Assembly: GCA_016841265.1 (NCBI GenBank)
Contig: JAENZL010000018.1
Coordinates: 1 to 64,000, forward strand
Direction of reading: 5' to 3'
Source of the DNA: Methanobacteriota archaeon
GTDB lineage: Archaea; Halobacteriota; Methanosarcinia; Methanosarcinales; Methanosarcinaceae
DNA length: 64,000 nt
This document shows positions 6,621 through 37,700 of this stretch, in pieces. The position numbers and the translations under genes were made by a program. Numbering within the stretch: the stretch's first letter is position 1; each line of letters opens with the position of its first letter. The notes below the pieces were generated by a model. It ran no database searches and was not told where the DNA came from. It saw only the letters and a list, made by a program, of their open reading frames with translations.

Positions 6621-9600
6621 TCATTTTTTCCTCTGGTATCCTACAAAAATTGCCCCTGACAGCAGCATTACGGATGCAATCGCGATGATATCCGAAGGTG
6701 AGATGGGCATGTTGCCAGAATTCCCTGATTTTTCAGGTGATTCCTTTTTCATTTCATACCCTTCCACGTAGTTTGCATCGGCAGCGGATCTCGCTTGCAT
6801 ATCCGGCTGAGGGTTCTTTTCAAGTTCAGCTCCGTATCCTCCCTCTGCCATCAGGCTTTGGTTGGAAGTACTGCCCTCCGAGCTACGTGTCTCTTCGGCA
6901 GGTATGACTGTGGCGCTGCCTGTACCGCTTCCTCCACTGCTTTCCCTGGCTTTTTGTGAAGAATCGCTGTCCTTTTTGCTGCTCGAGCTTCCCGGAAGGT
7001 TCGGGTTCCCGCAGATATTCTGGCTACAGGCTTTCCCATGGGTCTCAACTGATTCCAGGTATGCACTTGTCAGAGTGTCTACTACTTCGTCCGAAGGTTC
7101 CCAGTACCCTTTGTTAATTGCTTCGAGCATGGTGGTAACCATGTCCTGGTAGGCGTACGGGTTTTTTGCATCAAATACCTCTTTTAATCCCATTTCATAT
7201 TTGTCAAGGATAATGGTTTCGTAAATATCGTTCCACATGTACTCCTTGATAACGTCGGGAGTTGTTACCTGGAAACCGTACAGGTTATCCACCATTTCGG
7301 CTATTTCCTTCAATCCGGAGTAATCGGACCCGACCATTCCTTCCAGGTAGAAGGGGTTTTCTATCCTGCTGCGGAGTTCTTTGGCAATGAAGGCACCAAG
7401 CCCTTCAATTTTCGGTTCTCCTCTGAGGTTTGCAACCATTACTTCCGGAGCCTCTCCGGAAACTGCCTGGACTGCTGCCGAAAGCCCCCCTACGTACTGG
7501 AAGAAGTCGTCATTGTCAAGCACTCCGTAGAGGTTTGAGGAACGGCTGTTGATTACGACGTCGGTGCCGTTCAGGTTCTCCCTGAAGATAGACTCGTAGT
7601 TCCCGAGGTAGTGCATGAAGCCTTCACTGTCGACCGTGTACAGGTTTGCCATCCGGAAGATGTAGAGGTTACCGATAGTTTCGGTTCCGTTTCCAGAGTT
7701 CCAGTCGGTGCCTCCTGCTCCTATTTCCTTTTCGATGCCTACCCCGTAGCCGCCGGGAGGCGGGGCAAAGACCCTGACAGCGGCAAGTTCTCCGGCAAGT
7801 TCTTCAAAAGTTCCGGTAAATTCCGGGATTTCTGCCATGTAGGTGTCAAGGATCTTTTGCTGTTCCTCGGGGTCCATTGCAAGGAGAGCTTCTTCAATTT
7901 TCAGGGTGTGTTTTTTAACGTAGTTATCTTCAGGGGCTTCTTCAAGTCCTGAGATAGTGTGGGTTGCCGTATCAAGCAGCCTTATCTGGTACTGGAGGGT
8001 ATCCCGGTAGAGCCCGGAGATCGTGATCACAACGTCTACGCGGGGGCGGTTTACGGTTGTCTCGTCGGGGAGCGTAATTTTCAGGTCTTCTAGAGAGGTG
8101 ACTCCCACCTTGTCGTTGTAAACCTTGCTGAAAGCCCCGGAGGAGTAGTAAAATTCGGGCTCTGCCCCCATAAGCCTCAGGGTCATTGCTTCCATTACCC
8201 CGTTGTGGCGCAGGGTTTCCACGGACCAGAGGCAGACGCTTATCTTTTCCGGAAACTCCCCGTGCTCGACATAATATTCAAGCAGCAGCTCGTCTGCGAG
8301 TTTTTTTCCTGTTTCCCAGGTCTCGGGGTTTGGGATCTTCTTTGACTCAAAGCCGTAGTAGTTTCTGCCTGTTGGAAGCACGTTCGGGTTGTTTACCGGG
8401 TCTCCCTGTTCGCTCGGGAGGATATACCCGCCGTCCAAAGCGTGGGTAAAAGACGTAAGTTCCCCCGAGGTGTTCAGCAGGAAAAGGGTCTCGTTTGCCG
8501 TTTCGAAGGTCTCGTTGAGGATGTCGAGTTCTCCAGGGCTCAGGTTGCGGTTCAGGTGTGCTTCCACCGCTTCTGCAAACAAGCGGCTTTCAGGGCTGCA
8601 GTTCTCGATTGAAAGTGCAAGCCAGTTGCTAAGGTTTTCAGTGTTTGAGCTCTCCTCCAGGACCTCGATTCCTCCGGCACTTACAGCGTCCGCGTCATAT
8701 CCGAGCAGGGTACAGGAAGTGTTCAGAAGCAGGTCCGCATGCATGGTTTCAAGGAACATTGCGGCTTTTTCTCCCGCCGGGCTCTGTCCGAAGGTATGGG
8801 TCCCGTAGGGAATAGTCTCTGCGCTTATCTCTTCCAGGTATTCTACAATCTCGTCAAGGGTTTCTTCGAAGTTCTCATCCGTTACCGTAAGTCCCAGGTC
8901 CTCGTCAACTGTACTGTTATTGAGTAGTTCGATGACCGCATTTTTCGTTTCGTTCATTCCGGTCTCATACCCGCTCTGCCTGTACTCCTGGTAGTCCATC
9001 AGGTAGTTTTTCAGCTCGGTAAGGTCCCCGTAGACTCCGCTTTTTGCAATCGGGGGGGTCAGGTGGCTGATCAGGGTCGCGTACCCCCGGCGTTTTGCCT
9101 GGATGCCTTCCCCTGCCCCGTCCACGATATAGGGGTAGATGTTAGGTATGTCCCCGAGGAGCAGGTCCGGGTAACTCGTAGCGTTCAGACAGACCATTTT
9201 TCCGGGCAGCCACTCATGGGTCCCGTGCCTGCCAACATGCACCATAGCGTCAGCTCCAAAACCTCCCTCTTCAGGTGGGTGCTGGAGCCAGAGGTAGAAG
9301 GCCATGTACTGATGAGGCGGTGCAATGTTCAGGTCGTGGTAAAGCCTGTCAATGTCCTCTTCCCAGCCCCTTGCCGGTTCCGGAGTAAGGATTATATTTC
9401 CGTTTTTGATTACAGGGATGACAATGTAATTTTTCCCGTCCCTGTTTACTACCATCATTTTCCCTGGGGGCTCTCCCCAGCTGTTGACCACGTCGTTCCT
9501 GATTCTTTCGGGCAGTTCGTTGAACCAGCTTTCGTATACACTGGCATCAAGCAGGACTATCGAATCGTCCTCGATTCCTGCTTCCACCAGGGCATCCAGT

Positions 9601-11507
9601 TCTTCCGGAGCCCAGGTCCCGACGTTCCTTCCTTTCTCAAGGATTTCGGCTTGCAGTTCTTCAGGGGTCATATTCTGTACCCCGTACCCTTCGGCCCTGA
9701 GCGAGTCAAGCATAAGGGAAAGGGATTCAAAGAGGTTCAGGTAACTTGCTCCAACATTCTGTTTTCCGGGAGGGTGGTTGAAGTAGATAATGGCTATTCT
9801 TTTCTCCTCTTCCGGACTGTGCCGGAGGTCTGCGTAGGCTTCTGCCTGCCCCAGCATGCGGTCTACCCTGTCCGGGATAGGGTAACGGAGGTAGTCGTCC
9901 TCGGTAAACTGGGCTTCTACGGGGATCGGGCAGATCACTCCGTCAATCTCGGGCTGGTCAAGTTTCCAGGTTATTGCAGCCCCACTCATCCCGTAGGGGT
10001 TTTTATCCCATTCTTCATAGGTCTGGTAAGAGAGGCTCACCGCTTTAAGCACGGGCACGTCGCTCTGGTAGAGCACTTTATCGTAATCAGTAGCTGCGAA
10101 AAAGAGGAAGCTGATAATAGAATCAACTTTCATTGTTTCGTTTGAGTCGTTGCAAATGGAATTGTCGTAGAAGCGGGTGATCGGGGCGTTCCAGGGCACG
10201 TAACTTGCGACCACGTTGTAACCGTCTGCTTCGAGCTGTCGGATCATGGCATCTTCGGTATGCAATTTTCCTTCCTGGTAGTCCCTGTAATACATGGCAA
10301 TCCCTATCCACTTATTTGAGGGGTTGTAGTGCCCGCTGGATAGGTACCATTCGTTATACGCTTCCCTGCTGAGAAATAGGTGTTCGAAACTGTCGTTGTT
10401 GTAGGTGCAGGCAGGGGCTTCAGGGTGGTAGATGCCAGCCGGAGGGACTGTCATGGTGGGTTTTACGAAAGGTGCCAGGTCCGGCCTGGAATCCGTTTCA
10501 TTTGCGATGTAGATGAACATCCTGACCAGGTTTTCCGGCAGCACCGTCCTCCAGTACCCGGGTGTGCTCGAGCTGGTGCTGAAGAGTTTTCCAATGACAG
10601 TTGTCCCATTGTCCACATTTTTGGAATACCAGTTGGTCGATGAAGAAAAACCTGCAACTCCGAGTAATTTTACGTTTCTTTCCCCGGCAGCTTCAATCTG
10701 TTCTTTATACAATCCATACTGTGCATCTGCAACGTATTCAAAAAGGATATCTCCTTCCCATGCCTCGATTTCCGCGTTTACGAACGCAGCCTGGGAAGGG
10801 TCCCTTGCGACTTTTTGCATTGCCGAGAGGTTTGCAAAACTGCAGTCTATCCCGTATTCGGAAAGTTCACCCCTGACACTTTCAATCGTATTGGAGTTCG
10901 GGAGCACCACCAGCAGGACGGACGTCCTCAGGGGGTCCTCTACGTTTCCGGCAAGGTCAGTCCTTCCATCAAGCTCCACTGATGCGTAAACCAGGAGGTT
11001 TTCGAGGTTTTCACCCGTCCAGGTCCAGTAGAGGTTTGCTTTTTCCTGCACTGCCACCGGGACGCTGGAGAGATGAAAAGATTCTTCAGTAAGGGCAATG
11101 CGCTGCCCTGCAATGTCGCCGCTGGCAATTGCATACTCAAGGGATGTCAGGTTTTCATTCCCGCTGACATCGATCAGTACAATGTCCGCACTGATGGGAC
11201 TTCCATCAAGAGGGAACTGGTAAGTGCTGACGTTTATCGAGTATGTAGAGTTGTTTATCAGGGTATGAGGAGCCTCTGCGTCCGTCAGGTAAGCAAAGGT
11301 GGTTTTTCCACCTTCCGGGACCGAAAATAAACTTTCTTCTGCTTCCGTGAAGGTCTCAGCTCCTGCGTTTGCCTCAGATGCAATAAACAATATCATCAGA
11401 ACTAAAGTCACTACTTTTATTGCCTGGGTTTTTTGAATCAGGCCTCTAAATTTTCCATCGGTTCTTCTATTTTTCCGGTGGGTGTGGTTCAGTATGTTAT
11501 CTTTCAT
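6621..11507 (-). CDS. CobN/magnesium-chelatase H-like protein, exported and membrane-anchored
   Basis: 1628 residues, longer than ordinary cytoplasmic CobN. The N-terminus is basic and then hydrophobic (AIKVVTLVLMILFIASEANA, about 29-48), a likely signal peptide. The middle carries the CobN hallmark HVGRHGTHEWLPGK (about 760-775). After about residue 1490 a Ser/Lys/Glu-rich linker precedes the usual CobN end EGYEM and a final transmembrane helix with a QRKK tail. Asn-X-Ser/Thr sites are plentiful. CobN binds the tetrapyrrole and inserts metal together with CobS/T or ChlI/D partners, none of which is in the window. Its topology suggests the chelatase domain faces outside, where ATPase partners would be absent, so a role in binding or exchange of corrinoid or metal is possible. 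The family call is sure; the function is not. Confidence 0.85.
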   Translation of the reverse strand: MKDNILNHTHRKNRRTDGKFRGLIQKTQAIKVVTLVLMILFIASEANAGAETFTEAEESLFSVPEGGKTTFAYLTDAEAPHTLINNSTYSINVSTYQFPLDGSPISADIVLIDVSGNENLTSLEYAIASGDIAGQRIALTEESFHLSSVPVAVQEKANLYWTWTGENLENLLVYASVELDGRTDLAGNVEDPLRTSVLLVVLPNSNTIESVRGELSEYGIDCSFANLSAMQKVARDPSQAAFVNAEIEAWEGDILFEYVADAQYGLYKEQIEAAGERNVKLLGVAGFSSSTNWYSKNVDNGTTVIGKLFSTSSSTPGYWRTVLPENLVRMFIYIANETDSRPDLAPFVKPTMTVPPAGIYHPEAPACTYNNDSFEHLFLSREAYNEWYLSSGHYNPSNKWIGIAMYYRDYQEGKLHTEDAMIRQLEADGYNVVASYVPWNAPITRFYDNSICNDSNETMKVDSIISFLFFAATDYDKVLYQSDVPVLKAVSLSYQTYEEWDKNPYGMSGAAITWKLDQPEIDGVICPIPVEAQFTEDDYLRYPIPDRVDRMLGQAEAYADLRHSPEEEKRIAIIYFNHPPGKQNVGASYLNLFESLSLMLDSLRAEGYGVQNMTPEELQAEILEKGRNVGTWAPEELDALVEAGIEDDSIVLLDASVYESWFNELPERIRNDVVNSWGEPPGKMMVVNRDGKNYIVIPVIKNGNIILTPEPARGWEEDIDRLYHDLNIAPPHQYMAFYLWLQHPPEEGGFGADAMVHVGRHGTHEWLPGKMVCLNATSYPDLLLGDIPNIYPYIVDGAGEGIQAKRRGYATLISHLTPPIAKSGVYGDLTELKNYLMDYQEYRQSGYETGMNETKNAVIELLNNSTVDEDLGLTVTDENFEETLDEIVEYLEEISAETIPYGTHTFGQSPAGEKAAMFLETMHADLLLNTSCTLLGYDADAVSAGGIEVLEESSNTENLSNWLALSIENCSPESRLFAEAVEAHLNRNLSPGELDILNETFETANETLFLLNTSGELTSFTHALDGGYILPSEQGDPVNNPNVLPTGRNYYGFESKKIPNPETWETGKKLADELLLEYYVEHGEFPEKISVCLWSVETLRHNGVMEAMTLRLMGAEPEFYYSSGAFSKVYNDKVGVTSLEDLKITLPDETTVNRPRVDVVITISGLYRDTLQYQIRLLDTATHTISGLEEAPEDNYVKKHTLKIEEALLAMDPEEQQKILDTYMAEIPEFTGTFEELAGELAAVRVFAPPPGGYGVGIEKEIGAGGTDWNSGNGTETIGNLYIFRMANLYTVDSEGFMHYLGNYESIFRENLNGTDVVINSRSSNLYGVLDNDDFFQYVGGLSAAVQAVSGEAPEVMVANLRGEPKIEGLGAFIAKELRSRIENPFYLEGMVGSDYSGLKEIAEMVDNLYGFQVTTPDVIKEYMWNDIYETIILDKYEMGLKEVFDAKNPYAYQDMVTTMLEAINKGYWEPSDEVVDTLTSAYLESVETHGKACSQNICGNPNLPGSSSSKKDSDSSQKARESSGGSGTGSATVIPAEETRSSEGSTSNQSLMAEGGYGAELEKNPQPDMQARSAADANYVEGYEMKKESPEKSGNSGNMPISPSDIIAIASVMLLSGAIFVGYQRKK

Positions 11508-15080: not shown

Positions 15081-15396
15081 AATAGATAAACTTAAATCTG
15101 GAGGATTTTAAGGCGTGAATCTTTTCCCGGGAGCTTTCCCGCCCGGACTTTCAACTTATAATGGCTAATGGGATATATATTCTCCCAAATAATTTTTATT
15201 TATTTTACATGTTTTGCTTCTTTTTTACTTACTTTCTGCTTAATTTTTGGCAGCCTGCTTTTCCCGTATGAAATTGAATGAGTCTTCACCAACTGTTTCT
15301 CTTTTTTCAGACCAGCCCCAAAAATTTAATAAATCTCATTGGTATATTTAACTAGGGGATAAATCCCAGTCTAAGTTTGTTTAAGGGGGTGATAGA
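15081..15396. other. Divergent intergenic region
   Basis: No gene seen. The middle (15170-15240) is AT-rich and should hold minus-strand promoter elements for the oxidoreductase operon and plus-strand ones for the small-protein genes. Confidence 0.4.
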
Positions 15397-15525
15397 ATGG
15401 CTGAAGAGAAAAAGGAAAAGAAAGAACAAGCAGAACCTGAAGTTGCAAAAGTTAGTCCTATACATTTAGAAGATGAGCGTGGGGGCAAAAAGAAGCACCT
15501 TTTGAGCTGTGAGAAGACTCAATAA
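15397..15525 (+). CDS. Tiny protein, RGGKK-LL-C family, copy 1
   Basis: 42 residues with a very charged Glu/Lys N-terminus (MAEEKKEKKEQAEPE), then SPIHLEDERGGKKKHLLSCEKTQ-type end. It shares the C-terminal pattern ERGGKKxxLLxxCxK with the next two ORFs, including a single Cys. The N-terminal half is probably disordered. The ribosome site AAGGGGGTGA stands before the ATG. I do not recognise the family. Conservation of the C-terminal half among three tandem copies argues that they are real genes. Confidence 0.7.
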   Translation: MAEEKKEKKEQAEPEVAKVSPIHLEDERGGKKKHLLSCEKTQ

Positions 15526-15603
15526 ATTGCCAGAGCGGTTTAGAGGTCGAGTAAAGCAGCATCAATAAGGAATCATGAGTAGCTGGAGATTTAATAATCC
15601 GGA

Positions 15604-15649
15604 AATTTAGTGCTATAAGTTAGCTTAATTTAGTGCTATAAGTTAGCTT
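15604..15649. repeat. Perfect 23-bp tandem duplication
   Basis: AATTTAGTGCTATAAGTTAGCTT (split here: AATTTAGTGCTA, TAAGTTAGCTT) occurs twice head to tail at 15604-15626 and 15627-15649, between the first and second tiny genes, about 40 bp before the second ATG. It may double a promoter element (each copy has CTATAAGTT). Confidence 0.75.
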
Positions 15650-15686
15650 AATACTTTATCTTTTATTGATTAAGGGGGTTTTTAAG

Positions 15687-15815
15687 ATGGTAGTGGAAAA
15701 GAAAGCAGAGGAAAAAGCGGAAGAGAAAGAGGAGGAAGCGCATGTTGAACCCATTCACCCTAGTGAAAAGGAGCGTGGGGGCAAAAAGAGGAGTCTCCTC
15801 GATACCTGCAAATAA
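15687..15815 (+). CDS. Tiny protein, RGGKK-LL-C family, copy 2
   Basis: 42 residues, same length as copy 1. A Lys/Glu-rich head (MVVEKKAEEKAEEKEEE) is followed by EPIHPSEKERGGKKRSLLDT and a CK end. The P-I-H core, ERGGKK, LL and Cys positions match copy 1 exactly. A TTAAGGGGG ribosome site precedes the ATG. Function unknown. Confidence 0.7.
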   Translation: MVVEKKAEEKAEEKEEEAHVEPIHPSEKERGGKKRSLLDTCK

Positions 15816-15873
15816 AAAATCTCTTAATTTTTCATTTTTTCAATTTCAAGTATGAATTAAAAGGAGGTAAATT

Positions 15874-16011
15874 ATGTCACAAGAACCTAAAGTTGATCCG
15901 ACCGAACCAATGGGAGAGGGGCATGGGAATAGGAAAAAGCCTCTTCTGAGCTGCGAAAAATACGATGAAGAAGAGAGGAAGGAAATCTGGGATGAAGAGA
16001 AAAAATCCTGA
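15874..16011 (+). CDS. Tiny protein, RGGKK-LL-C family, copy 3
   Basis: 45 residues. The core DPTEPMGEGHGNRKKPLLSC and the following EK match copies 1 and 2, but the acidic head is short and an extra charged tail (YDEEERKEIWDEEKKS) follows. AAGGAGGT precedes the ATG. The acidic part has moved from the N- to the C-terminal side, while the Lys-Lys, Leu-Leu and Cys core is kept. Function unknown. Confidence 0.7.
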   Translation: MSQEPKVDPTEPMGEGHGNRKKPLLSCEKYDEEERKEIWDEEKKS

Positions 16012-16088
16012 ATCTTTTCTCAGCGCAGAGGGTTAAAAAGTAATATTATATAAAGGTTTTTTAACCTTTTCAACCTTTTTTACTTCTG

Positions 16089-16205
16089 TAGGACTTACGC
16101 ACTTGATGAATGAAATAAAGTACATGCGGCCTTATCAATTATATTGTGATTTATACAATTAAGTGTTTTCCGCTTTTGTTTTCCAGTTCAACTGCGTAAG
16201 TCCTA
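16089..16205. mobile_element. 117-bp miniature inverted-repeat element, copy 1
   Basis: Terminal repeats TAGGACTTACGCA and TGCGTAAGTCCTA are perfect over 13 bp and the similarity continues with TTGA. Direct repeats TTCTG flank it (16084-16088 and 16206-16210), a 5-bp target duplication. It has no coding capacity. A second element of the same length lies at 37529-37645. It is presumably moved by a full-size insertion sequence elsewhere in the genome. Confidence 0.85.
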
Positions 16206-37411: not shown

Positions 37412-37700
37412 TGAAAAGGCCTGCCTGCGGCCGGTGAGTACGTCGGAACGTTATATAAGAGGATTCAGAATCCCTTCTCAATTTCTGAAAGCAAATTCAA
37501 TATTATGTGGCTTTTTTTCGAATAGATTTATGAGTTACGCACTTGAGAAGTAAAACCAAGCACATGAGGGCTTGCCAAGAAGATTCTGCTTTAGACAGTT
37601 TGGTGCTTCATGCTACTGGTTTTTTGTTCAATTGCATAAGTCCTAAGATTTTTGAGTCCGGCACTCTCAACGGCCGACGAAGGAGGCCGGCCTTTTCAAG
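37412..37700. repeat. GC-rich hairpin repeats facing each other
   Basis: GAAAAGGCCTGCCTGCGGCC (from 37414) and the right-hand ACGGCCGACGAAGGAGGCCG then GCCTTTTC (to about 37697) are inverted relatives of each other and of the repeat at 18746-18791. The 117-bp element copy 2 lies between them. Otherwise the 710-bp gap holds no gene. Confidence 0.5.
37529..37645. mobile_element. 117-bp miniature inverted-repeat element, copy 2
   Basis: Same length and ends as the element at 16089: left TATGAGTTACGCACTTGA, right TTCAATTGCATAAGTCCTA. The ends are slightly decayed (TAGGAC has become TATGAG). AGATT flanks both sides (37524-37528 and 37646-37650), a perfect 5-bp target duplication. The interior has diverged from copy 1 more than the ends. 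Confidence 0.85.

Follow-up and report, generated by a model that had tools for sequence, protein, structure and literature searches.

A Methanosarcinia family of small proteins with a conserved 21-residue C-terminal motif, represented by three tandem open reading frames

The 64,000-nucleotide stretch of a Methanosarcinaceae contig analyzed here (the window) carries three tandem open reading frames (ORFs), A, B, and C, of 42–45 aa, each with a ribosome site. A preliminary description took them for short proteins under selection, too short for usual gene calling, in which the core is constant and the charged ends vary. Are these ORFs genes, do they belong to one family, and what might such proteins do? 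Their coordinates and lengths are as first described, and the family libraries indeed hold no entry for them (described below).

Three tandem ORFs in the window

The features, with ribosome sites predicted from the sequence, are as follows.

15318..15333, + strand: likely BRE/TATA promoter element of A, matching the consensus used at 15/16 positions
15385..15393, + strand: predicted ribosome site of A, GGGGGTGAT
15397..15525, + strand: small protein A, 42 aa, variant ending LLSCEKTQ, ORF with ribosome site, MAEEKKEKKEQAEPEVAKVSPIHLEDERGGKKKHLLSCEKTQ
15451..15510, + strand: conserved core of A, VSPIHLEDERGGKKKHLLSC
15674..15679, + strand: predicted ribosome site of B, GGGGGT
15687..15815, + strand: small protein B, 42 aa, main family type, end LLDTCK, MVVEKKAEEKAEEKEEEAHVEPIHPSEKERGGKKRSLLDTCK
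15744..15809, + strand: conserved core of B, VEPIHPSEKERGGKKRSLLDTC
15863..15868, + strand: predicted ribosome site of C, GGAGGT
15874..16011, + strand: small protein C, 45 aa, paralog type with the core KKPLLSCEKYDEEER, MSQEPKVDPTEPMGEGHGNRKKPLLSCEKYDEEERKEIWDEEKKS
15931..15978, + strand: conserved core of C, RKKPLLSCEKYDEEER, dN/dS 0.15 on 76 pairs

The promoter match of A lies at −79 from the start, a distance that is identical in two sister species. B and C are spaced by 58 nt and probably share one transcript; no clear promoter precedes C, whose ribosome site is good. In two species of the genus, the core of the A ortholog shows synonymous changes and an unchanged amino acid sequence, and A-related copies are present elsewhere in Methanosarcina.

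Inspection of the surrounding sequence revealed that (i) a perfect 23-bp tandem repeat (15604–15649; AATTTAGTGCTATAAGTTAGCTT twice) upstream of B has a TATA-like TATAAG in each copy and a shortened version in one sister species; (ii) the mobile element previously noted between the ORFs and the ArsR-ArsM pair is a 118-bp MITE (16088–16205) before arsR that has terminal inverted repeats (GTAGGACTTACGCA...) and occurs 11 times in the genome, a second window copy lying at 37529–37645; and (iii) a CobN-like protein of 1628 aa (6621–11507) has an apparent signal peptide and a C-terminal membrane anchor, and genes similar to it flank A-type copies in several Methanosarcina.

Family range, conserved core, and selection

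With B alone as the query, phmmer retrieved A from its own genome (E 0.0016) and, at E ≤ 1, relatives from 81 of the 112 Methanosarcinaceae genomes, the majority with E-values well under this limit. The alignment profile detected the family in 78 of these 112 genomes (E ≤ 1e-8) and in about 43 of some 50 Methanotrichaceae (Methanothrix/Methanosaeta) genomes. A check profile of relatives only, from which the window's own sequences were left out, scored B at 6.5e-18, A at 1e-17, and C at 0.029, and the C ortholog of a sister species reached 2.6e-6. Given these scores and the occurrence of C in frame with B in other species, their likeness is not due to chance. In ANME-2-like and other families of the same order (best E 0.0036) and in the wider phylum (best E 0.0015), the profile matched long unrelated frames at chance level, and no viral copies of the family were found. 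Searches of Pfam/Pfam-A and NCBIfam with 23 family members, and of PDB sequences with A, B, C, and the profile, gave no meaningful match. As judged from these comparisons, A, B, and C are real, related genes of a small-protein family absent from the libraries. The free proteins are mostly 37–80 aa long and have no winged helix-turn-helix domain.

The conserved part is the C-terminal 21-mer V-x-P-[IV]-[HKR]-P-x-[DE]-x-R-G-G-K-K-[KR]-x-L-L-D-T-C. Among 120 cores of this standard length, the R, the second L, and the D are present in all 120, followed by T (119/120), C and the first L (117/120 each), and P (116/120). The residue after P-[IV] is His in 81 cores, Lys in 31, and Arg in 8, with Lys replacing His in most Methanotrichaceae, and the basic stretch has the variants VRPKR, GHAKR, and VGKSR. 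Proteins of the A and B types have one Cys each. The Cys is replaced by Gly in 3 cores (loci L211, L212, and L213), all from genus g9, in which the rest of the core is kept; we take the genera g10, g6, and g9 to be Methanolobus, Methanococcoides, and Methanohalophilus, respectively.

For the core, Nei-Gojobori estimates (ratios of means, the pairs not being independent) give a dN/dS of 0.16 for Methanosarcinaceae and 0.09 for Methanotrichaceae; the N-terminus gives 0.42, on eight pairs only. The Glu/Lys N-terminus is relaxed, of low complexity, and predicted to be disordered. The homologs in two archaeal families and core values of about 0.09–0.16 speak against two objections foreseen in the preliminary description, a core without homologs elsewhere and a dN/dS near one, and bear out its view of selected short proteins. 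That the ORFs arose by chance or are non-coding, a reading to which their very short length and low-complexity N-termini lend themselves, has a probability next to nil: it is contradicted by the selection test, with dN/dS far below one, and by reading frames that stay open and carry ribosome sites in both families, and Rfam found no structured RNA above its cut-offs over the three-ORF region.

Paralog C, fusions, and gene neighborhoods

By sequence comparison, C is a separate paralog: the position of its charged part on the opposite side is explained by its conserved block, KKPLxSC[DE]KYDEEER. The shared core originally claimed for the three proteins stands, with the refinement that C has a block of its own. 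The C-type core, KKPL[IVL]SC[DE]KYDEEER, is represented by 21 distinct sequences, to which the dN/dS of 0.15 refers. Both the window genus and Methanosarcina have C orthologs, either stand-alone or joined to B. In Methanosarcina, the C module often stands in frame ahead of the B module, sometimes twice in succession; in the window, C is unfused and downstream of B. An apparent link between the C module and arsM was dropped, as the profile had missed stand-alone C copies in other Methanosarcina.

The motif also forms the N-terminus of a 207–218 aa GbsR/MarR-type regulator in about ten Methanolobus species (profile-profile comparison of the regulator tail with the family: probability 97%, E 4.6e-11). 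The Cys and the LL are kept in some, not all, of these tails, and the regulator body resembles MJ223, a GbsR-type MarR protein (1ku9, E 2.5e-7). One Methanolobus example of the GbsR/MJ223-type MarR regulators bears the family motif as an N-terminal tail, whereas the free small proteins lack a helix-turn-helix, which only the Methanolobus fusion has. In AlphaFold models, the regulator body folds, the tail has a pLDDT below 50, and the free B protein has a pLDDT of 68 and a pTM of 0.19, that is, low confidence and no fold alone; free B and the regulator tail both look disordered by themselves in these models. The motif-bearing regulator is missing from most genomes with the free peptide. By the logic of fusions, the GbsR-like regulator could be a universal partner, a candidate that we rejected, as it is missing from most Methanotrichaceae. 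Motif-bearing regulators (L112–L116 and L132–L143) adjoin an AhpD-like CMD protein and an ArsR-like regulator.

Gene neighborhoods differ by lineage: (i) in Methanosarcina and the window genus, SudBA (NfnI-like), with or without arsRM; (ii) in Methanolobus and others, a sugar-phosphate synthase/RraA protein and a prepilin peptidase; (iii) in g9, a ferritin-like and YjbQ pair; and (iv) in most Methanotrichaceae, a position downstream of hemL-hemC-cobA/hemD and an AhbC/NirJ-like radical SAM gene. Each set recurs within one set of lineages only, and the neighbor genes were rejected as a guide to function. Co-occurrence with AhbC (found in 14 of 14 Methanosarcinaceae genera) or with SudB does not explain the range of the family either, both being found also in genera without the small protein. 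Most family genes of Methanotrichaceae have a TATA-like element 47–52 nt before the start, despite the upstream heme operon. Methanococcoides and several Methanolobus lack the gene, with flanks otherwise unchanged in most cases checked; as far as gene content tells, these clean losses show that it is dispensable. Gene order and promoter positions show a stand-alone gene, independent of its neighbors.

Two further observations concern the neighboring genes. Extra Methanosarcina copies (L069, L096, and L180) precede two DUF2180-like zinc proteins and a CMD protein, and some also precede an EchC-like hydrogenase subunit, these names being our own reading of the sequences. The radical SAM protein encoded last in the Methanotrichaceae heme operon (for example, at L119, L121, and L130) scores 346–348 bits against the AhbC and NirJ1 models (cut-offs 650) and, by these scores, is a divergent subfamily.

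Candidate functions

We lean towards the reading that A, B, and C are translated, stand-alone members of a Methanosarcinia family of cytoplasmic small proteins whose 21-residue C-terminal motif docks onto a conserved protein partner. The E/K-rich disordered N-terminus, free to vary in length, would keep the linear motif soluble and exposed; the motif would dock onto the partner, probably fold on contact, and modulate it; and tandem copies and fusions (C-B, or the motif on the GbsR-type regulator) would change valency or target. We infer a linear docking motif because the peptide is disordered and soluble and its invariant short element survives fusion at either end. The near-C-terminal Cys would be a common but replaceable contact or thiol; as it is favored but replaceable, it may make a thiol contact or allow redox tuning, whereas a catalytic role or a stable metal site is improbable. 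The comparisons demonstrate that the genes are real, under selection, independent of their neighbors, and modular, with disorder predicted; translation, docking, and the role of the Cys we infer. Against docking, no partner is indicated by the neighbors, which differ by lineage, or by the motif-bearing regulator, which most genomes with the free peptide lack; the clean losses mark the gene as dispensable, and the basic RGGKKK stretch would suit nucleic-acid binding too.

Binding of RNA, DNA, or the ribosome by a basic peptide, through RGGKKK and with LLDTC as the anchor, is a reading to be weighed. The R-G-G-K-K-[KR] cluster is conserved, the peptide is disordered, and one fusion is to a DNA-binding regulator; yet the basic stretch varies while R, L, L, D, T, and C are the (nearly) invariant residues, and the N-terminus is Glu-rich, so that we consider such binding unlikely. 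The role in metal, arsenic, or thiol-redox chemistry through the single Cys is distinctly unlikely. It draws on the Cys in 117 of 120 cores and on arsR-arsM downstream in the window genus and at some of the Sud-adjacent Methanosarcina loci, but arsR-arsM is not adjacent in other lineages. A second conserved metal ligand was sought in the cores and none was found, the His being Lys or Arg in 39 of 120 and the single Cys being Gly in the three Methanohalophilus genomes with an otherwise intact core. Of the metal, redox, or binding partners first suggested for these proteins, the binding-partner role is the best remaining reading, and the metal or arsenic role loses ground to the restricted adjacency of ArsR-ArsM and to the His-to-Lys and Cys-to-Gly variants.

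An accessory of tetrapyrrole (heme) synthesis, or a heme binder, would match the position of the gene in most Methanotrichaceae loci and the A-type copies beside CobN-like genes in several Methanosarcina. We regard it as very unlikely, given the gene's own promoter in Methanotrichaceae, the lack of an adjoining heme operon outside that family, and the occurrence of AhbC in all Methanosarcinaceae genera, including those without the small protein. The radical SAM/SPASM gene next to the family gene in Methanotrichaceae could suggest that the small protein is a precursor, turned into a ribosomally made, modified peptide or peptide cofactor when a radical SAM enzyme acts on its conserved C-terminal Cys. 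MftA has such a constant C-terminus and variable leader, as does the present family. A dedicated maturase next door in all lineages, as expected of an MftA-like peptide, was not found: the candidate gene adjoins in Methanotrichaceae only, with no maturase neighbor in Methanosarcinaceae, and groups with AhbC and NirJ by score. Larger proteins also contain the motif, internally or as their N-terminus, and the precursor reading appears highly improbable.

Docking onto a partner has precedents in this order: the studied M. mazei small proteins MtrI, MtrR, and sP26 act via binding to partners, either enzymes or transporters (PMC12774963, PMC13370731, PMC11456600). MtrI (MM_2401) comprises 68 aa and four helices, and its N-terminus carries a zinc ribbon of four Cys (PMC12774963). 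Like the family, it is encoded by a small stand-alone Methanosarcinales gene that was previously unannotated; it touches its partner via Cys, which in the family is a proposal. However, its zinc ribbon contrasts with the one Cys of the A and B types, the PDB sequence search gave no likeness, and identity with MtrI was rejected on Cys count and length. MtrR (49 aa) forms membrane-localized oligomers, modulates an enzyme by binding, and is reported only in Methanosarcina (PMC13370731). Small size is common to both, and modulation of an enzyme by binding is MtrR's feature; unlike MtrR, the present family occurs in two archaeal families and lacks a hydrophobic stretch, and identity was rejected on range. 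sP26 and sP36 act by protein contact with glutamine synthetase and the ammonium transporter, respectively (PMC11456600); they are set apart from the family by their descriptions only, in which no tandem or fused motif appears. A literature search for the motif and for sP41/sP44 found no sequence for comparison. Ribo-seq of M. mazei yielded a list of 314 small ORFs without annotation (PMC11456600). The present family is unnamed and undescribed, and members may stand without name or family in the tables of that study.

Most of the roughly 300 unannotated small ORFs of M. mazei have no known function. To these, the family, itself an addition missing from annotation pipelines, offers a 21-residue sequence kept in two methanogen families, relatives in the genetically tractable Methanosarcina, natural knock-outs (Methanococcoides), and a regulator fusion hinting at the mode of action. 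We take this to be a new small-protein family with an unusual modular history. More speculatively, and in our view doubtfully, the 21-residue motif may be a class-wide portable docking or thiol-sensing element, with free copies acting in trans and a copy grafted onto a GbsR-type regulator in Methanolobus. If so, a peptide signal and a transcription factor would share one partner or ligand, and this would be a peptide-based control circuit special to Methanosarcinia.
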